NCBI RefSeq assembly: GCF_042242105.1 | Contig: NC_092015.1 | Coordinates: forward strand, 13,321,035-13,385,034 | Length of the DNA: 64,000 bases | Source of the DNA: Pempheris klunzingeri | Taxonomy: Eukaryota; Chordata; Actinopteri; Acropomatiformes; Pempheridae | Direction of reading: 5' to 3' | In this document: one piece after another, positions 1 through 63,856 of the stretch | Layout: each line of letters begins with the position of its first letter | How positions within the stretch are numbered: position 1 is the first letter of the stretch | Program-made: the position numbers and the translations under genes | The notes under the pieces: generated by a model | What the model saw: only the letters and a program-made list of their open reading frames with translations | The model's database searches: none | What the model was told of the DNA's origin: nothing

Positions 1-476
1 CAGTTGTTGTTTTTTGTCCTGTTTAGGAAAATATGGAAATAGAATGAGGAAAAAAAACACCTGCAACGAGATTTAAATATACATGCATTCACCTCACAGT
101 CACTGATGGTGTCATTTTGAAAATAATCATCAATGTTTTGTTAAAATAAAGCACAGTAGCTTATAGTTATTACAATATAAATAGAATAGTCTAAAGATAC
201 ACTTCAACTATTCTGATAGGTTAATGTAGGAAACTCTAAAGCAAAAATAAATTGTGAAATAGAGACGTGGAACAGGCAGAGCATCATCTCAGTGTTGAAA
301 GCGATTTCAGGTTTGCAGTGTCATGGGTGCGAAGAAAGGACAGGACTGAAAGAGCTGCAGGAAGACAGTAACAGGTTCCAGAGGCAATAACATTGTTTTG
401 AAGAAGTATCACTTGGATTTATTCCCTGTCATATTGAACATTTCACAGTATTTAATTTTTATCTATTTCTTTTTAG
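1..476 (+). other. Intron upstream of the acidic exon
   Basis: AT-rich DNA with no convincing coding signal. It ends in a good pyrimidine tract and an AG acceptor at 475-476, so it is read as the 3' part of an intron whose upstream exon lies outside the window. Confidence 0.6.
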
Positions 477-2274
477 AGAAAAATCATATGAATCCCAAAC
501 TGAAGATGAATCCAGTCATTCAGCCGAAGGTTCAAATCTTTCCACCATACAATCTAATGTCTCTGATGAGGTTGATTCACCTGAAAAAACAGAGGAAGAA
601 GAAGAAAAAGAAGAAGGAAAACATGATGTTGCAGAGAAATTCATTACTTCAACAGAAAAGGGACTTTCAGAAGAGGAATCGGTCAACAGGCTCCCAGCTA
701 CAGATTTACTGCCAGATGAACTGAGTGGAACTGAGGAGGAGGAAGACCCAACAATAACTACCTTTGATAAAGTTGACACGGGAGCTAATGAAAAAGATAG
801 CAGCTCTGTTCCAGACCAAGATATAACCCGGTCTGAGGCTGAGTTACAGCCCACTGACTTGTTATCATTCAGAGGGATTTCACATGTAGATGTGTGTGCT
901 CAGGAGTTAGAAACGGATGAGGGAGGTGATAAACAAGAGACTGCAGTTGTAGATGAGAAGACTGTAGACTCAGAAGATGAGGAAAAAACTGAAGCTGAAG
1001 AACCAGTGGAGGTTTTTCCATATTCCGGGTTAAGTAATGTGGATGTGTGTGCCTCAGAGCTTGGAGGAGCAGAGGTAACAACGAAAGAAGCCATTGCTGA
1101 AGATGATACACATGTAGTTGAAGAGGAAAGCTCAAATCCCCAACCTGAGGAAACTGTGGTACAATCATCATTGTCTCAATCTGAAGCCCCTGAGGGCAAT
1201 GACCAAGAGGCTGAAGATGAGGCAGAAAAAACAAAGGATGAGGAAAGATCAGAGACCGGGGCTTCTTCTGGGGAAATACATGAAAGTTTAGCTCATATAG
1301 AGGGTGAGTTAGACAGTAATACTATTCCAAAGGAGGATGACTTGGTTGAGATTAGCTTTGAAGATGTTCCAGAGGCTCAGCAGATTAACAAGGCTGGGGA
1401 GAAACAGCCAGAGGAAGAGGTTTCAGTAGGGGTCTTACAGACTAAGATGCTAGAAATGCAAGAGGAGGAAGAATCCAAGGAGGTCACTGTAGCGGCAACA
1501 AACGATGAACCTGAAATGATGGGAGCAGAAAAGGAAGTTAACTCTGAAGGGGAGGAGATGGAAAGTCAGCATGAGGCATATGATATAACGAAGGAGAAGG
1601 TGGACACAAATTACTCTAATGTAAGTGATAGTGATGATGATGATGAGAAGGGAAAAGGTGTTAAAAACATCAGCTCATCAAATCAGCCCACCACCGAGGC
1701 AGACGAAGAGAACCCAGACGATGAAACCGATCATAAAAATGAAGACGACGAGAAGATTAGTGAAGGCGAATTTCACCAGAATGAGGGTTCTGAAAAAGAG
1801 ACAAAACCAAACAACCCTGACTTTAAAGAAGATGAGACAACAGACTCGGATGGAGGAGACCAAGAGGACAAACATAAAGAGCGTTATAGTGAGGTGGAGG
1901 ATCAAGAAATGAATGATGGTGGTGCAGAAAATCAGCCATCACTTGTAACCCAGTCAAATATACCAACTGCTGCAATGGAGACAGAAAGTGAAACTTTAGT
2001 GACAAGCGCAGATCTGCCAGAGGAGAATGAGGAGAGTCGGGGAACTCTTGTACAGCCAGAGGATACAGAGGCAGAAAAAGAGGTCATATCAAAGGAGGGA
2101 GCATCAGAAGCAGAGGAACTTGTGGAAGAGGGAACAATTGACTCTGAAATTCAAGAGAAGAGTGATGCCATGTGTGAAGAGGGCAGCACCATTCAAAGTG
2201 CAGACTGTCTGGCTGCTGACCACCAAGGAGAGGAAAAGGACGCCACACAGCCGGAAGGCAACAGTGTTGACAAG
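477..2274 (+). CDS. Large acidic internal exon of a spa17-like gene (partial)
   Basis: A single open exon of 599 codons, bounded by an acceptor at 475-476 and a donor at 2275-2276. The reading frame starts at base 478; base 477 completes a codon from an upstream exon (phase-2 intron). The downstream donor is phase 0 (GAC AAG|GTAAAG). The product is extremely rich in Glu and Asp, with little hydrophobic content, so it is probably disordered. No signal peptide or membrane segment is visible. A 14-residue motif, F/Y-x-G-I/L-S-x-V-D-V-C-A-x-E-L, occurs at 868-909 and 1021-1062, 51 codons apart. There is no start codon in this exon that needs to be used and no stop before the donor, so both ends of the protein lie in other exons. 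The first residues (EKSYESQTEDES) resemble the acidic stretch after the RIIa domain of human SPA17 as remembered. SPA17 neighbours NRGN in human. Identity is inferred; the exon itself is well supported by its open frame and splice sites. Confidence 0.7.
868..1062 (+). repeat. Two copies of a 14-residue motif in the acidic exon
   Basis: Codons 868-909 read FRGISHVDVCAQEL and codons 1021-1062 read YSGLSNVDVCASEL. The copies are separated by an acidic linker. Sparing of VDVCA-x-EL within otherwise drifting acidic sequence suggests a short binding motif; its partner is unknown. Confidence 0.75.
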
Positions 2275-2637
2275 GTAAAGTTTGATGTTTCTTCTTGATA
2301 CAGAATGCACATACTTAATGAGTTTGTTTTTATTTCTGTGCCACATCTGTCCCGTCTCACTTTGGATTACAAGACACCTTAACTTTACAAAGCATGCATC
2401 TCCCAATAACACATTTACACAGTAGAAAAAAATGACCACATTTTAAAGTATGCCTATACCCTTTCAAATGACATTTGAAGTGACACGTTTCAAATAAATT
2501 GTTCACTCAAAAGAACAACTACAGTTTATCCTGATATTTATCTTTCTCTTCTCCCAGAGTTTCTGAAAGCAACCAGCAACTTATTATATTTATACATACA
2601 CATGACCCACCATATTTCACATATCTTTATATATGTC

Positions 2638-3542
2638 TTAAAGGTGCAATGTGAATGATTTTGCCACCCACTCAAAATAGATAGGGGGCAGCATTTAACC
2701 TCCTTCTCCCACCTCCGTCCTCCCCTATAAGGCAGTTTTTGAATTTCCGCCTGAATGAACATAAAAATGCCAACTGATAGTGATGATAATGTAGTTTTCA
2801 TGTTCACATTAAAATTCCGACATTTGCGTGTGTGCACCAAGCATCATGATGTAAACACAGAATTCGCCTCCACTCATCTTTACTGGAATCCGCGATCTGT
2901 CTGCTCAGAGCACAGCCCACTCGTCAAGAGCAGTAACTTGATCAGAGGCGCTGAAACAGAGCCAAGTCTCTGGAAAGATGTGGGCACAAACAGTCTGTGA
3001 TTTCCTGTTACTCGTCCAGCCTGAGTCCCATTTCATCCACTCCACCTTTGCTGAACAACCATCCAGATCCAAGCTGGGTTAACTTAGCTCTTATCCCGGT
3101 TCTCTTCCCTTTCCTCTGGGGCGGTTGAACCACTAATGCATTTTGTCCATGGGCAGCTGTTTTTTATCCAAAAAAACTAAAACTAAAAAATGAACAGCTT
3201 GAAACTAAAATGTGGCCAAGTTTGAATGAGCTACACCTGCTACATTTGGAATGTTTTTCAGTGCAGTTAGTGTTGTCGTCAGTCGTTCTAAAGATATGAA
3301 ATAAAATGTTTGCAGAGGAAGCAATTCTTCTTCTTCTTCCTCTCATGTCAGGCTGAGGGCAGACTGAATGATACAGTGATTCACGATCAACCCTGATGTA
3401 CAAAGTGGTATTCTGAGACAGTATAAGCCGAGGCTAGCAGGTTAGCATGTTAGCAACTTTTGTAGATATCTCCACACCACAGTACATTTTGAATGTGTTA
3501 AACTGTAATTCTGCCTAGCTCTTACACATTGTACCTTTTTAA
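2638..3542. mobile_element. Non-autonomous DNA transposon (MITE-like), about 905 bp
   Basis: The left end reads TTAAAGGTGCAATGTG (2638-2653). The right end at 3525-3542 is its imperfect inverted complement (CACATTGTACC...TTAA). No transposase frame is visible inside. Both ends carry TTAA, which could be the target site, but this is not proven. A second copy of the same end, in reverse, is at about 36242-36328. Confidence 0.6.
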
Positions 3543-5470
3543 TAGATGAATATTTTTACATTAGAGAATATGAGAAAATAACCCCGATAGTTTGCCCTTC
3601 TTGGCCATAACTTGTATGCTTTGAATATAACACAGACTGTTGTCTGTTGTCACCACATCTCCACTTTTATCAGCAGGCTGAGGATAAATGTTTGGACAGA
3701 GGTGTCTTTAGCTAGGCTACAGTCTGCTCTGCTCCCATTTCTGTCTCAGGTAGCTTATATAAATAAACCCTTCAAGGACATGTCTAACCAACAGTGGCCC
3801 TCAATTTTTCCCCCTGGACTCTCTAGGGGTATGTGATTGAAAATATCTCCAAAATAGTTCATTTTCTGGATGACGTATGGCTGTCGCTCTGATAAACTTT
3901 GAATGTCACGGAGAGGGTCATAATCAAAAACCTTCTTAACCGTGGTTGTGCTTCAAAATTGTAGTTTCCGTCTCAACGTTCACAATAATCTGCGTCTTTG
4001 TTCGTGTACTGGCGTGTTCAAGATGCTGTTTGAGGACTTCGCTCTGCTGCATGCTCATAAAACTGTAATCTGGCTGTGTTAGTGCCAGATCCACTCTCCT
4101 CTTGGGAGCCACCACAGCCTTTACAGATTGAAACTTGATTCAGTGATCTATCATCATAAAAGACAGACTGAACAATTTGTCTTGTGAATTAGGCCTTTAA
4201 CATTTTTACTGCTGTCACAGTTAGCCCTGTCTGATTTGTCTGGACCAACAGGGCTCCGAAACACACAGGGAGGGAGTGTAGGAACGGGTACTAAGAATGT
4301 TACCATGGTAACCTCTCACCATCCTGCTCTCTCTTAGTGTCGTCATGGAATTAATAGGAGATGGTGATGCTGATAGTTGCTATGCACCATCTGTATCAGT
4401 AATCTATCTTTAATAGCTGTTTCCAACTGACTGATTAAATGAGTGCTTTCTGTATTTTTACATACAGCGCTATTTTGTATTCTCTTGCTTAGTGGCAGAA
4501 TTTATTTCGGCTGGAACAAAGCTGCCACAAAACTGTACAATATATAGGCCATCTATTCTAACAGTGACCTAGCTGCAGTCTCAGATGCCTTTTCTTTTTA
4601 TTTCATTTTTCTGCCTTTAAGCGCTGTTTATAATGATGTTCCTATACTTATCTCGGGAGAATAAATACTGTGTTAGGTACACCAACAATCAGGCTAATAT
4701 GAGCAGTCTAAAATGACTGATTACGGTAAATTTGATTACAGTCTTTATGAAATTAACAAAGTGAACTGATCGATAAAGCAAGTCAAGATAGTGAGATTAG
4801 GCATGAGGCTAACTTAACATATTGTTTGAGCGGTTAGTAAACCAGCAAGAGAGCGTTAATGTCAGAGATATAACTCAGATAAATGGACGTTTTCTGTTTC
4901 TCTCCCTCTCCGTCTTGTCTCTGAGGCTGGCAGAGGAGTGTGGGCGGCTATACCAGCTGGGATCAGAGGGATGGAGAGGGCTGTTAGCTGTTAGAGGCAG
5001 AGTCTCTAATAAATTTATAACACCTCCTAGTGCAAAACAGTCCAAGATGCTTGCACTGTTTTGTTGTCACGCTATTAGTAGAAATCTGAAAGTCAGCAAT
5101 TATTGTTTTGTGACCATCTGGCTTTTGTATAGTATTTCTATGTTGGTCATCTGTTATTCATGGAGTTTATTATTTATGTTTTTTAGTAACACTGCAACTT
5201 GTGGATTTTTTTGATGCATGTGGGAGTCACTTTGGGTTTTTCTAATTTATATCCAGACTGTATTGCTCATCATTTTCACTTGTGTTGAAACTGTCAAACT
5301 TTAACTCACTGAAAGCACTTCATATTCAACCTATTTCATTTGATTTTCTTAAGTCTTAAAGTTGTGCTCGGTGGATGTTAAAGGTCTGTAACAGTAAAGT
5401 GAACACAGTAGGTCAGGAACCTTAATGAGACTGAAAAGATGGAACACATGCTGTCATGTTTGTAGGAGGT

Positions 5471-5522
5471 CTCTCTTTCCCTCCCTCCCTCCCTCCCTCC
5501 TCTCTTCCTCTCTCTCTGACTG

Positions 5523-5560
<38 letters not shown>
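5471..5560. repeat. CT/CCCT pyrimidine microsatellite
   Basis: A CCCT-rich block followed by (CT)n, ending about 180 bases before the neurogranin start codon. It may lie in the nrgn promoter or 5' leader. Confidence 0.9.
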
Positions 5561-5563
<3 letters not shown>

Positions 5564-5738
5564 ATGCGTGAGCGGGTGTTACTGAACATACAGTGATTGT
5601 TAGTAAGAGCCAGTGAGGCATCTGTATTATACCGGAGACTCATTTAAAGAGAGCCTTGCTTGATCCACATAAAAATCGAGGCATACAAGTCACACTAGCT
5701 CAACTCACCTGAAGACTGAAGTCATCTCTGAGTAAGAC

Positions 5739-8700
5739 ATGGACTGTCACAATGTAAGTAGAAGCTTCAGGTTAACTTTTTTTAATTGATTCATTTTTTC
5801 ATTTTCAACCAATTTGGTAGGTGGATGCACATACAGTTCACTGTGTAATAGAGTTTGATAGTTAGTTGGTATTTACTAGTTTTGTTTCTCCCTCAAACTG
5901 GATACTGCCATGTGTGTGTTATTTTTGTCCTTTCACCGGAGTAAAATCTATTATGTTAACCACTTGAATGATTATGACTCACAAATGGTACAAATTTCAC
6001 AGGAAATTGACCCCATAATGTCAGATAGCCCCAAGGTTTACATAACTTAGCTAATTTATACAGCTATGAAGCTATTTTCATCATAAGTGGATTACATGAG
6101 ATTTGCATCAGAATATTTCAAATCAATTTGTGTCTAAAACCCCTGAGGCGATAAAAAACAATAAGACCTTGCAGAAGGTGTGTAGCCAGCTAAATCCAAT
6201 GCACCAGGCAGGCATCACTGCCACTGCAAAAGAGCTGGATTTTGGCTGCTTAGTGAGCAGTCAGACAGAGAGGCTAATGAATGCTGGCTGAACAGGTGGG
6301 TGGTCACACTCCTACACTGGAGGGGTTTCACTGGAGACATGATGCACTGCTTCACCAAGGTAGTGGGATGACAGTGGGCTCATTCTGTGGGCTGCCTTTG
6401 TGTGAAATGTCAATCTGTTTCCATAAGCAAAGCATGGGGTGTAGCCGATATGTGTTTCACCACAGAATTTGAACTGGTGTTTACATAACTCGTCGACAGC
6501 CTTGGCGCTATTCCACTGACACTTTTCTGACAAGCCAGAAATTTCTCTTCCGCCCACCTCAGGTTTCCTTTGGGACAATGGATGCTGTACTTTCAGTCAC
6601 TGAATGAGCTGCTGGTGTTGACTACAGCAGCATTTTCGCTGGGTCATCCTTTTTGGCCCAGGCTGCAGACCAAGAAGTTGTTTTGTTCTTGAGAGAGATG
6701 TAAAATCTAGCACTTAACCATATCTCCATTATTTGAAATAAGAATTAGTTATAAATATATTACCACACGTGAAGCAGTCTTTTTACATGAACCTTGTTTC
6801 TTATCATAAGAAGCAGAGTGTTTTGTTTTATGTTATAAACATTGAAACAATGAAAAAATAATGAACATTTTTATAATGATTGCCTCAACCCAACTCAACT
6901 TGAGAATCTATGTCTCTTAAATGTGCAGTTTTATGGCTTTTTAAAAACATTTTCTATGATAAAAAAAAAAACCCAGCAGACTGGTAATTCATTACAAAAT
7001 AGGTTGACTCAGATGTGTTTTTGCCAGCAGTGTATTATATGGTATATAAGAGGAGAAGTGAAAAAAATGTGGGTTATTGACCTTCTGAGAGCCCCATTGA
7101 AGTCATGTAATAAGAGTGAGCCACTCAGCCACAAGCACACATCCGTCTCTGTCTAAAAGATAGTGCTGGAGCATACACAGTTGACAAGAAAAGGCTGTTG
7201 CAATTTATTGAGGGCTAGATTCTCCCACCAATGTCACAGGAAAAACAGATCTCGTAATATGCTCCCCTTCTGTGACAGACTGCTAGTTTTTGCTCCTCTC
7301 AGCAGGAGGAGTGCAGCCGGCCCCAGGAGGAGGAGGACATCATGGACATCCCCCTGGATGACCCAGAGGCCAACAGGGCTGCCGCCAAGATCCAGGCTGG
7401 CTTCCGTGGCCACATGACCCGTAAGAAGATGAAGCCGGAGGACAAAGCAGAAGGGGAGGAGGTGAGCAGCACTGGGGATGTGCTCAACGGCAGCCAGGGG
7501 GACACAGGTCAGTGGTGTAGAACCATGGGCTAAGACTAGGCCTCATAATGCCGTTAAAGAGGGCATTATGGCTAGTGACTGTAAGGATGCTAACAGAGGC
7601 TCCCATCAGGAGCTGTAGCTACAGGAGGTGATGAAAGGTAAGTGATGCGGAGCAGAAGTTTAGCTTGTGAGACTTATAGCAATTCAAGGTTCTACATACT
7701 ATGAGCAAGGAAATGTTAGGCATAGCGCTTTTAGATAAGTAAGTATAACGGGATGTGCTGCATGCTGTTGGTTGAGGTGTCCCATTTTAAGATGTTAGTG
7801 GTGACTATAACCTTTTCTCAGAGCCAAAGTCTTGAGCGTAATGCAGGAGCACAAACTGATTTACCATTTTACACACATGGAAACAGAAACCCTTTAAAAG
7901 CTATACATAATTAAATACACCTATTAGAGCCCCTTATGGGTTATTCCAAGTGTTATTAATGCAATGCATAACTGAGTGACTCATTTAATTACCCCACAGG
8001 GTATGCAGCAACAGATGATTGAATCTTTCAATTAATTCTTTTGTTAAAGGGGTTATGAATGAATCAGCCTGTAGATGTGCTGTTAAATCGCTAGAAGAGA
8101 ATAGATGTTTGTCAGAGTTCAGGTTACCCAGAAAATGTCAAATTACATTCTCACAATGGCAAACATGTTGTCCTATTTTTATTTTGTGCAACTATTGACA
8201 GGGAAGTGGTTTCAGAATTCAGTTAACAGCGCGAAAATGTCTCGCTGTTTTCTCCTGAGGGCGTCCACTGTTTCCACTGTAGACTGTGTCGTTTCAATAC
8301 AGGCAAAGGCTGCATTTAAGACTTGATTTTTATGCTTCTAAAAAAACAAAATCAAACCTCCGTCAAAAGGCCAAACAAAGTCGTCATAGTATAAAATCGT
8401 ATAAAAATGACCTCACAAATTTACATCAGATTTCCAGTTAAGTCAGATTTTTTCCTGAAACACAGTAACTAGGTTCTTTTGATATGTAAGACTAGACTTT
8501 AGATTCTCAGCCCTCAAAATTTCACCTTTTCCAGTAAGACAAAGCAGCACTTTCTTTGGGGATGCAGCTGGCACAAGGGATCCTCGTCAATGATTCTCCC
8601 TAACCCACTTGCTGGCTGCGTTGCATCCTTATGTAGGAGATGTATTTATAGCTCCAGGTGCATTAGGCACAGTATATGCTTCGGAGGGCCTAGCAGAATT

Positions 8701-9141
8701 AATGGACCTGTCGGACTGGAACAGAGCATTACGAGTACCTCCCATTGGGGGAGACCCCTTTTCACAGCAGAATTGGGTTTTTGAGCTCATCGGTTTATGT
8801 CGTTTCTCAGCATTGCAAAGTACTTTCAAACTTTGAAAGTAAATTCTGCTAAACAGATATTTGCATAATGGAAAGTTCCACTTCCTATTAAATTAAATTC
8901 TAAGTAGCAACTCAATATCAAGTTTTCTTCAAGAGTGTGTTTTTATAAGAGATCCACCCACATGTAACCTTACAGTTTTTGGCTGCGCATTGGAGCCTTT
9001 AACCTTGACGACTATAGTGTATACAGAAAGTGTTCTTTCCAGGCTCTGCGGTGCTTAACTACGCCTTGCCTATTTCTGTTTTTAGAGACAGGAGGATCGG
9101 GGGCAGTAGAGAGAGACGACACATCTGTGCCAGAGCAGTGA
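5739..9141 (+). CDS. nrgn: Neurogranin, IQ-motif calmodulin-binding protein
   Basis: Three coding exons: 5739-5753, 7303-7507 and 9086-9141. The product is 91 residues (human about 78). Exon 1 encodes only MDCHN, like mammalian neurogranin, which also starts with MDC. Exon 2 carries the family core [20 protein letters not shown] followed by [12 protein letters not shown], an IQ motif that binds calcium-free calmodulin. In mammals the protein is postsynaptic and buffers calmodulin. Exon 3 gives an 18-codon tail ending in TGA; the AG at 9084-9085 keeps the frame. The mammalian PKC-target Ser (IQASF) is Gly here (IQAGF), so that phosphorylation site is absent. The exon 2 acceptor is a tandem CAGCAG, so a 90-residue form starting at 7306 is possible. 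Identity is firm; the exact use of the tiny exon 1 is a little less so. Confidence 0.88.
5754..7302 (+). other. nrgn: nrgn intron 1
   Basis: GT donor at 5754 and AG acceptor at 7301-7302. AT-rich, with only chance ORFs. Confidence 0.75.
7508..9085 (+). other. nrgn: nrgn intron 2
   Basis: Donor GTCAGT at 7508 and acceptor TTTTAG ending at 9085. A short open stretch at 8609-8836 looks protein-like but lacks splice sites and a family match, so it is left as non-coding. Confidence 0.7.
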
Positions 9142-10040
9142 CGCCCCTGTCCTGACCTGGATGAAGAAAAAGAGGGGAAGCAAGGTAGCGAGAGATGGCT
9201 AGCATAAGCTGGCTGGGCTGGCTTTCAGGCACACCTTTTTACCCCAGGAGTCATTTTCTTTTTCAACACAAATTAGCAGTAGAAAATGAACCGACAGTTT
9301 TGAGGGTGTGTTATGTGATTTTTGTGAACTTTAACACTCCTTCTCTGCTTCTCCAGCAGTGTCATCAGTACGGATGTCTTTGACCCAGAATTTGCAACTC
9401 ACTGCATGTACTTGTGAAACTTCTGGTAGTGTGCTAGTTTTTAGATGATGGTCTGTGAATGTGAAAATGAATGTCCTCTAAATTCTAAACAGGGTTTATT
9501 TTGGATGGATCAGTTCATGCCGTCTGTGTATAAACCTTGTATGCATCTGCACTAGACTTTGCGTAGGTAGTGGCTTCAGTTATTTGTTATTTTGCATTGT
9601 TTTCTGATGTGCTTGTATCTTGATTATTATTTATCTATTTGACTTGCTTATGAAAATGATTAAAACATCAAAAGAGAAGTAGCTATGTATGTTCGATTTA
9701 TTATTTATTAAGTTATTTTATTCAGATTTCAACTGCCTTGATTATCTTTTTGATCACAGGATCTTTTCACCGTTACAAGCATTTTCTATAAATCTGATCT
9801 TCCAGAACAGTAGGCATGCAGTAATTACACTTTTTCTTTCCCAGATGCATTTGGTGCAGCTTTACCTTATGAGACATTGGTTCAATATGCTCTGTTGTTG
9901 TGTTGGTGGGTTTGACTTGTTAAATCAGATGTGTGAAATTCCATTGTCAGAGTTTGCAGATCCGTCATGCTTCAGAACTAATTGAATAGTACATTGCTGA
10001 ACTTTGCTGTAGAGTCATGGCATTACAATAATAAATCCAC
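9142..10040 (+). other. nrgn: nrgn 3' untranslated region (probable)
   Basis: Follows the nrgn stop. AATAAA is found at 10030-10035, which would give a 3' UTR of about 0.9 kb. Earlier ATTAAA-like signals near 9659 could give a shorter form. Confidence 0.45.
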
Positions 10041-13371: not shown

Positions 13372-19481
<6,110 letters not shown>

Positions 19482-24323: not shown

Positions 24324-27300
24324 ATGGGCTCCAGCTCCTCTTCCTATGCCCCAAAAACCATTTACCTGGAGGTGGACGGGAAAGTGCAGAAGGTGGGTCC
24401 AATTCTAGTGGAAATGTTTTATTTCTTGGGGGTTTTTTTCATTGTAAATTTATATTCAATCTCTCCTATTTATTTGAAATATAAAAAAATATAATTTCTT
24501 CTGTGTGGGATGGGCTGGTTTGACTAAAAAGTTATAAAAAGTCATATAATATAGAAAAGATTTTTGAATAAATGGAAACACTCACAAATCAAAGACTCAA
24601 AATCTGTTCAAATTAAAATTATTTCTTCTACATTAAGCACCTAAATTGTTTTGACAATGCAATCCAAAATATGTTTTAAACAGTGACTCGTCAAGTACAT
24701 TTTAAAGTTTGATTGATTTATCTATTTGTTCAATTTTAAGACAGAAAGATTTGATAATGGGTTTAATTATAAAGCCTGCCTTTAACGACTTTAGCGATGG
24801 CAATTAAATAATTCAACCTTTAATTCCCCTTCTTGATTTATATAGCAGGTATTCCCAGATGACTACCCTCATCTGACGAGGTGAGGCTAAAATTAGACGC
24901 TGATGCAAAGCAGTTTGTCTTACAGGTGTTACTAACAGAGGCAAACACCTGTTGTTAGCAGGTTACTCACGGGCATTCATTTCGTCTGCCTTACAGTTCT
25001 GGAGTGAAAATATGGATTTAGATGTAATTTTATCATAGGTTTAAGTTTCCAGGAGCAGAAATTGAGCAATTAATCAGTGCTGATACAAAAAGGAAAAAAA
25101 CTGGCAAGCAAAATAAAGTATAAAACTAATATATTTCCGCTTTTTAATCATGATGAACATAGCAACAGCTTTGTGATAATTTAAACAGTCGTGACAAATC
25201 GTTTAAGGCTAAAGTTTCATGTTTCAGTGTTCCAGACATACTGAGATGCAGATTATTGAAGCACTTGCTGATCTGGTGATGTGGAGTGCTTCAAGTAGAG
25301 AGCTGGCAATGACACATGTCTGCTCAAGAGCCCTGAGCCCACGGCCTGAGGCTGAACGTATGTCTACTACACCTGCTCGCCTCAAGATGCAAGATCACAG
25401 AATTTGCACAGCAAATCTGCATCTGTACTCTCTGTGCATGCACTGTGCTGAGTCTTGTAAACTGGGCTGATAGCACGACAGACGTGGATAATGTCGCTAT
25501 CTTCAAGAGCTCCATGATCTCTCACACTCCAGCTGTCCTTTTCTTTCTCATTTTTCTCTCTGCTGACTTGACCTCATTTAACCATGAAACGAATCGACCC
25601 TTACTTTACATTCCCATGTGACTCGGTTGTCTGAAAAACACATGAAATTTGATAACCTTCCTACTCTGTCAGAACACTGAGGCCTTATATCAAAACCACA
25701 GCAGCTGTTTGTGTGCAGGTGTGCCTTTAGAAACCACATAGACACAGCCTGCACTGTGTTGAATTTGGGGAGAGGTTTTTCCTTATAAACAGGTGACGGT
25801 ATAATAATTAGCACTACTATGTGGCCTTTTTCCCCAATTACCAATTCATTAAATGTAAATCCACAGCCATCTACCTGCAATTCCATCACGTGCGTATAAA
25901 TTGATATAAAACGGGATCCAAGCTTGTTTTTGACTTTCGAAAACCAATAAAATTACCGTGTTTACCTCACAGGTGGTGTTCAGTCGGCATTGCAGCCCGT
26001 GTGACATCAAGGAGCTTCTGTGTTCCTCATCTAACATTCCCAGGTTTGTTGTTTTGTTTCCTCACTGATTTATTTACTGACATGCACATTACATCTTTCC
26101 ATGTATGTGTTGGTGGGCACAAGTGAAAATTGCCCATAAAAAACTATCCCCCTAACTTGCTGAGAAATATCATACAAAACAGCAACAGTCGTGCAGTAAA
26201 GCAGCTCTTAAAGCGCTGTTTTGCTTTTATTGAGGAAAATAAACTTTGTATACACAGTTTTTTCAGTTAGTACTCTTCTCTCTTTCTCTTTCATTCAGCA
26301 AGCCAAAGTCTTCAGTGCACATATTTTGGAATAAAATATAGCAAATTTATATTCTTTGTTCATAACTTTTATAGTATAAATGTTGATACTTTCTGTTTAA
26401 CGCTAATGTAATATTTAGCACTGTCTCACCCATGAAAAAAAGTCAAAATATTTACATTTTCAAAAGACTATAGTTTGATTCTAGAGTAAAACAGTGAGAG
26501 GAGTGTATTTCTACTTACTCTTACTTTTGTTCACTGCAGGAACACTGCCATCATGATGGTGGACCCAGAAGGTGCCTTGGTCTCCATAGATCCCACCATG
26601 CCCACCAACTCTCCAAAGTAACAAACTAGCATTATGATATTTTATTTATATAAATATCACATAGTTGAACTGAAATGAACTGAATTTACCTCAAGTGACA
26701 TTCATTTCCACCATATCTGCAAAGCTACTAAATCAGCCTTCGGGTGAGATTGTTCTGTCAACTGTCAAATCTTTGCGGGAAAACAAAAGTGAACTATAAC
26801 ATCTCCTCTGGTTTCCTCACAGCTCTTTGTACAAAGTTATCCCTCTGTCTACTGGTCAACTTGGAGGTAAACCGATCAGTTAGCAACTGATTTATTTTCC
26901 TTTACTCTATCTCGTTCACTAAAGAACATTCACTGTGAAAGCAACAATGAGCCCGAAAATACCAAACTTGACAATGTAATTGCTGTTCACAATGATTTAT
27001 CAGGGGTGTGTTTATGTCTGCAGAGAAGGAGGACATGTTTCAGAACGTGTTGTCCCAGGTGGCTGAGCAGTTCAGCAGGTAACACCTCAGTTGTTTATGT
27101 TATGTTATGGCTGAAGCCTGCCCTTCCCCACCCTCACACATACCTCACACACATGCCTGACACCAGTGACTTTCAAAGATAATACATGCTGCAACCCATA
27201 GAGGCAAGTTAAATCAGACAACAAGTTCTTGCACCTCTGTCTTTTATTTTGCTTTATTTTTTCTATTCCGGAACCTTGTGAAATGCACATAATTTTCCAT

Positions 27301-62437: not shown

Positions 62438-63856
<1,419 letters not shown>

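Follow-up and report, generated by a model that had tools for sequence, protein, structure and literature searches.

The giant acidic exon near the start of the 64-kb stretch of DNA analysed here (the window) belongs, in our sequence-based gene model, to spa17, the gene of a sperm and cilium protein with an N-terminal RIIa docking/dimerization domain. The neurogranin IQ exon that lies downstream is probably shared with spa17 through a long splice from the donor at 2275 to the acceptors at 7303 or 7306.

The evidence for the first part comes largely from the 10 kb that precede the window (here L009, in which position p corresponds to window position p minus 10000). The sequence-only reading had proposed a large spa17-like protein and had suggested searching upstream of the window for an RIIa-domain exon ending in phase 2. 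An Sp17-type exon was indeed found, starting 0.64 kb upstream of the window, exon 3 ends in phase 2 and joins the acidic exon in frame, and the gene is spa17 itself. The upstream exons, the acidic exon and the sites within and next to it are as follows.

L009:9358-9511, plus strand: spa17 exon 1, RIIa docking/dimerization domain (Pfam RIIa, E 2.7e-12).
L009, about 9596-9693, plus strand: spa17 exon 2 (gene model).
L009:9800-9843, plus strand: spa17 exon 3, donor in phase 2 (gene model).
477..2274, plus strand: spa17 exon 4, acidic, 599 codons, rich in Glu, Asp and Ser; acceptor in phase 2, donor in phase 0.
850-933 and 1003-1086, plus strand: paired, related copies of a short motif within the acidic region, GISHVDVCAQEL and GLSNVDVCASEL (sequence).
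1621..1622, plus strand: internal donor-like site AAT/gtaagt, phase 0 (splice score).
2275..2276, plus strand: phase-0 donor of exon 4, AAG/gtaaag (sequence, splice score).
2296..2298, plus strand: in-frame stop met if the donor is read through (open frame), with an AATAAA at 2493.

Residues 1-71 of the predicted spa17 protein align to the Sp17 structure 7my4 (E 4.9e-32), and its N-terminus also aligns to the longer PDB chains of Sp17, 9fqr (E 4.9e-30) and 8j07 (E 1.8e-29). The gene therefore carries the RIIa docking/dimerization domain together with the Sp17-type extension; excerpts of PMC8339350 describe a zebrafish Sp17 structure of 71-residue length. Whole-genome searches were run on the 646 Mb assembly, in which the window lies on contig C4, and the best candidates were scored. 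With exon 1 as the query, no second copy appeared among the 6 matches, the next best of which had an E of 0.004, and spa17 looks single-copy here. Exon 2 ends in a weak donor, modelled at L009:9694 (score -0.32), and any of several phase-0 sites could serve. The choice among them alters few residues and leaves the frame unaffected.

Exon 3 ends in TCT AA/gtgagt; its split codon is completed by an A from the acidic exon, after which GAA AAA TCA follow in frame. The acidic region thus carries on the frame of spa17 from exon 3, and a single open frame runs across all six exons of the model. Based on the upstream RIIa/Sp17 exon and the phase-2 junction, we assign the acidic exon to spa17.

The exon itself is as it had been claimed from the sequence, with 599 codons and a phase-0 donor at 2275. 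The open frame extends from stop to stop over 391-2298 (635 codons), of which 599 are whole codons between the acceptor at 477 and the donor at 2275 (frame 478-2274). When 391-2298 was resampled 2000 times at order 1, no frame was longer than 215 codons (median of the longest, 81), indicating that the acidic frame is not a product of chance. Its computed product contains 21.5% Glu and 9.8% Asp, with a net charge of -145 and a pI of 4.05, and we expect the acidic linker of the model protein to be disordered. Comparison of the acidic exon with Pfam and PDB gave zero matches, and a search of the whole genome gave no further match at E up to 1. The two donor-like sites inside the exon differ in phase: use of the site at 1621 would shorten the acidic region while keeping the frame into the IQ exon, and the second, at 1304, is in phase 1.

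The neurogranin gene downstream consists of the following coding parts.

5739..5753, plus strand: neurogranin coding exon 1, MDCHN; donor in phase 0 at 5754.
7303..7507, plus strand: neurogranin IQ exon, also the proposed spa17 exon 5; tandem acceptors 7303/7306 (Pfam IQ).
7378..7434, plus strand: IQ motif (motif scan), with Gly at the position of the mammalian PKC Ser36.
9086..9141, plus strand: last coding exon with the stop, a tail common to both models (gene model).

The neurogranin model has 90 residues, beginning MDCHN/EECSRPQ, with the MDC.. first exon followed by the acidic/IQ exon; its start at 5739 is preceded by a CT-rich tract. A phase-0 start of the IQ exon, proposed at 7303 or 7306, was borne out for both acceptors, which form a NAGNAG pair (ctctcag/cag/GAG), and the exon's donor at 7507 reads CAG/gtcagt. 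The IQ motif is recognized by Pfam (E 6.9e-6) and matches the calmodulin-bound IQ structures of neuromodulin and neurogranin (E 5.7e-4 and 5.9e-4). In the genome the exon has 7 matches, the best besides itself being gap43. PKC Ser36, a feature of mammalian neurogranin, is absent and replaced by Gly; as this substitution is reported for teleost neurogranin (PMC11043121, excerpts), it was not taken to exclude the gene from the family. The coding primers for zebrafish nrgna given in excerpts of PMC4177677 start with atggactgtcgaaac, which matches the MDC.. start found here.

The sequence is read most economically if the acidic exon joins the neurogranin IQ exon, since this is the sole IQ found in 74 kb, the phases agree and an IQ has been published for zebrafish Sp17. 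We scanned the 64-kb window and the 10 kb upstream on both strands with six IQ motifs. The neurogranin IQ alone stood out (score 73), the next candidate reaching 28 and the best inside the 2275-7302 intron 15; the scan found no separate Sp17 IQ exon. Genome-wide, queries with the neurogranin exon and with the Sp17 C-terminus likewise gave no separate Sp17 IQ exon among the best candidates scored. The C-terminal 47 residues of the PDB Sp17 9fqr (species not given) had three weak matches in the genome, namely the neurogranin exon (E 0.07), gap43 (E 0.14) and an Ig/IQ protein (E 0.16). Both longer PDB chains of Sp17, 9fqr and 8j07, contain an IQ motif, and excerpts of PMC3306315 describe zebrafish spa17 (zgc:153721) as having an RIIa-type domain, an IQ motif and a "glutamine rich region" that human and mouse lack; the excerpts do not say which exon encodes the zebrafish IQ. 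As the only IQ found by the local scan is that of neurogranin, Sp17 here has either lost its IQ or uses the one of neurogranin.

Against the join, agreement in phase between the donor at 2275 and the acceptors at 7303/7306 is expected by chance in 1 case in 3. The donor ranks 75 among the 3942 GTs of the window and the two acceptors 14 and 23 among its 4245 AGs (scores 11.2 and 10.6), by approximate vertebrate splice frequencies, and sites of equal quality are almost as numerous on the minus strand, which served as control; the splice scores alone therefore decide nothing.

The sequence-only reading had seen no other partner exon between 2275 and 7303. This is nearly so: at model-quality splice sites the interval holds zero internal in-frame exons and the bar admits a single acceptor, at 2558. 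A loosened scan (acceptor 6, donor 4) gave 16 acceptors and 5 open candidates, none acidic or IQ-bearing, and only one of them, a 29-residue exon at 4221-4307, is in phase 0 on both sides. It is this loose exon and the acceptor at 2558 that the earlier statement had passed over. Two further features of the intron bear on how spa17 might end.

2558..2566, plus strand: rival terminal exon with a strong acceptor, encoding SF and then a stop (splice score).
2632..3510, plus strand: repeated, transposon-like stretch, pieces of which match many sites in the genome.

The acceptor at 2558 ranks 4 among the 4245 AGs of the window, with a score of 13.6 against 11.2 at 7303 and 10.6 at 7306. It also lies nearer to the donor at 2275 than these two sites do. 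The repeated stretch has at least 52 matches in the genome, itself included (best 40 of 333 candidates scored), and the poly(A) signals that follow 2558, at 2808 and 3300, are both within it.

The principal alternative to the shared exon is that spa17 has lost its IQ and has an end of its own, either SF and a stop after 2558 or read-through to the stop at 2296-2298 with the AATAAA at 2493, neurogranin being an ordinary separate gene. SPA17 and NRGN are separate genes in mammals, as they would be here. The rank of the acceptor at 2558 and the presence of the AATAAA also speak for such an end, and decay of SPA17 has a precedent in chicken, where it is reported as a pseudogene (PMC3434135, excerpts). 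Against it stand the IQ in both longer PDB chains and the IQ published for zebrafish spa17 (PMC3306315, excerpts), the location of the signals at 2808 and 3300 in repeated sequence, and the phase-0 match at 7303/7306, which would be reduced to coincidence. On balance we consider a separate end of this kind rather unlikely. It is more doubtful still that spa17 has dual ends, one Sp17 that ends at 2298 or 2558 and lacks the IQ and another that carries it by way of the neurogranin exons, perhaps depending on the tissue; usable signals are present for all three 3' options, but this explanation overlaps partly with that of the shared exon. That spa17 has an IQ exon of its own, missed through an assembly error or a different location in the genome, is very improbable: short divergent exons are easily overlooked and the genome search scores the best candidates only, but window positions 1-9600 are without N, the 5-kb intron is without an IQ-like stretch, and the Sp17 C-terminus matches neurogranin, gap43 and the Ig/IQ protein only, among the best candidates.

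If the exon is shared, one locus would be served by two promoters. An upstream promoter would drive spa17, with its RIIa docking/dimerization exons and then the giant acidic exon, and the splice from 2275 would skip the neurogranin promoter and its tiny first exon, entering the IQ exon at 7303 or 7306 and continuing to the tail exon. The joined model comprises the RIIa domain, the 599-residue acidic region and the IQ and has 783 residues via the acceptor at 7306, with one more via 7303; its product would combine an Sp17-like N-terminus for dimerization and docking with a calmodulin-binding C-terminus, separated by a long acidic linker. An internal promoter 5' of 5739 would produce the 90-residue neurogranin from MDCHN and the same two exons. 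A ciliary and a neuronal promoter would in this way feed one calmodulin-binding end. The spa17 exons, the phases, the one IQ found and the neurogranin model can be read directly from the sequence, and from them we infer the long splice from 2275 to 7303/7306, the separate promoters and this ciliary/neuronal division.

Upstream of spa17, a site that is X-box-like by the RFX consensus lies at L009:8979-8991, between an AATAAA at L009:8910, taken for that of the preceding gene, and the start codon of spa17. The 10 kb hold no other match; the pattern was picked after the site had been seen, and shuffling the 10 kb gave at least one match in 17 of 200 cases. In the window the pattern occurs once against 0.75 expected, with no excess over chance. 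Excerpts of PMC8339350 present Sp17 and ROPN1L as a pair forming a docking module and report that RSP7, a component of algal radial spokes, has the extended domain of Sp17. Expression of zebrafish spa17 is reported in the olfactory bulb, epiphysis, otoliths, pronephric duct as well as in vessels (PMC3306315, excerpts), a pattern which would fit ciliated cells.

Published data on neurogranin bear on the large product as well. In a zebrafish brain blot, excerpts of PMC9618489 describe three neurogranin-reactive bands of the mouse sizes and mention no large band, which is mild evidence against abundance of the large protein in brain. The passages of PMC2386828 on the neurogranin region of salmon do not name spa17. 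In the portions seen of the literature searched under both names, there was no mention of an exon shared by SPA17 and neurogranin; among the papers listed, one on mouse retroviral insertions named both. Separately, this fish sequence was looked for among bacterial, archaeal and viral contigs, and none was found.

Should the splice be real, a protein of synaptic plasticity and a protein of the cilium and sperm would be linked via one calmodulin-binding exon. In that case, fish neurogranin mutants that target the IQ exon would damage Sp17 too, and in situ probes on the shared exons would detect both spa17 and neurogranin. There would be a testable explanation of why teleost neurogranin lost the PKC serine, and a bearing on the origin of the neurogranin/GAP-43 family. 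The position of Ser36 is Ala in two solved Sp17 chains, Gly in the neurogranin described here and Ser in gap43 of the same genome. We conjecture that an IQ exon which also serves Sp17 would be under relaxed or conflicting demands at this position. A wider proposal, which we regard as unlikely, is that neurogranin here, and perhaps in teleosts at large, is an internal-promoter product of spa17, with one IQ exon serving a calmodulin buffer of neurons as well as a ciliary/sperm protein; this double duty could explain why the PKC serine was lost in teleost neurogranin, and the neurogranin/GAP-43 family may derive from the C-terminal part of a gene resembling that of Sp17.

Compared with known systems, spa17 here shares the N-terminal RIIa docking/dimerization domain with vertebrate SPA17/Sp17, including zebrafish spa17 (zgc:153721), and its N-terminal domain resembles the PDB chains 7my4, 9fqr and 8j07. 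It differs from vertebrate Sp17 in the acidic region of 599 codons in a single exon and in that an IQ exon of its own was not found in the window, the 10 kb upstream or the best-scoring candidates of the genome. The neurogranin model resembles NRGN/nrgna in its tiny phase-0 first exon (MDC..), with the IQ exon next, and has Gly for Ser36 like other teleosts, whereas it differs as the proposed internal-promoter product of a larger gene. The gene of the same genome that we take, from its sequence, to be gap43 (neuromodulin) likewise has an IQ exon, whose acceptor (tatcag/GTGGAG) is apparently in phase 0, but differs in keeping the Ser (KIQASFRGH). An RIIa gene beside gap43 was considered as a fossil of common origin, and none lies within 9 Mb among the 13 listed RIIa matches. 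By analogy, the closest formal parallel would be telokin: an internal promoter within the large gene of smooth-muscle myosin light chain kinase gives rise to this small C-terminal protein, which has in-frame 3' exons in common with the kinase. As in telokin and the kinase, the 3' exons here can be read in one frame by both products; the arrangement there is established by transcripts whereas here it is proposed from sequence, and the two proteins here bear the names of separate gene families.

The IQ exon of neurogranin opens on a NAGNAG tandem acceptor (window 7303-7306), and from this acceptor two neurogranin forms are predicted on sequence grounds, with and without one Gln (MDCHN-Q-EECS). 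The intron that separates this exon from the acidic exon of spa17 contains repeated, transposon-like sequence (2632-3510), pieces of which match many other genome sites in a whole-genome search. In the acidic region itself, a VDVCA-centred motif occurs twice (850-933 and 1003-1086), the rest of the region being acidic; the motif is possibly a binding site.

Upstream of spa17, a receptor-like gene occupies about 6339-8915 of L009, the 10 kb directly before the window, and its 3' end lies approximately 0.4 kb from spa17. Comparison with Pfam yields a weak Ig-domain match for this gene, at E 8.6e-4 to ig and E 4e-4 to V-set, neither of which reaches the cut-off of its family. The sequence EYAVITYA may represent an ITIM-type tail of its product.

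Further genes were found inside the window:
15542-16733, a pair of exons encoding Ig domains (matches to V-set at E 5e-11 and to Ig_3 at E 1.8e-10)
24324-24395, likely the N-terminal exon (24 residues) of a PDE9A-like phosphodiesterase (PDB match, E 0.0016)
63290-63853, TLC-domain gene (TRAM_LAG1_CLN8, E 6.8e-15)

We take the two Ig exons to be, probably, those of hepacam; in human, hepacam is close to NRGN.

Finally, a gene covered by L006 and L026 (contig C4, 22.5 Mb) reads as what we presume to be gap43. It shares the contig with neurogranin, 9 Mb away, and retains the PKC serine, the counterpart of Ser36 in the mammalian neurogranin IQ motif.
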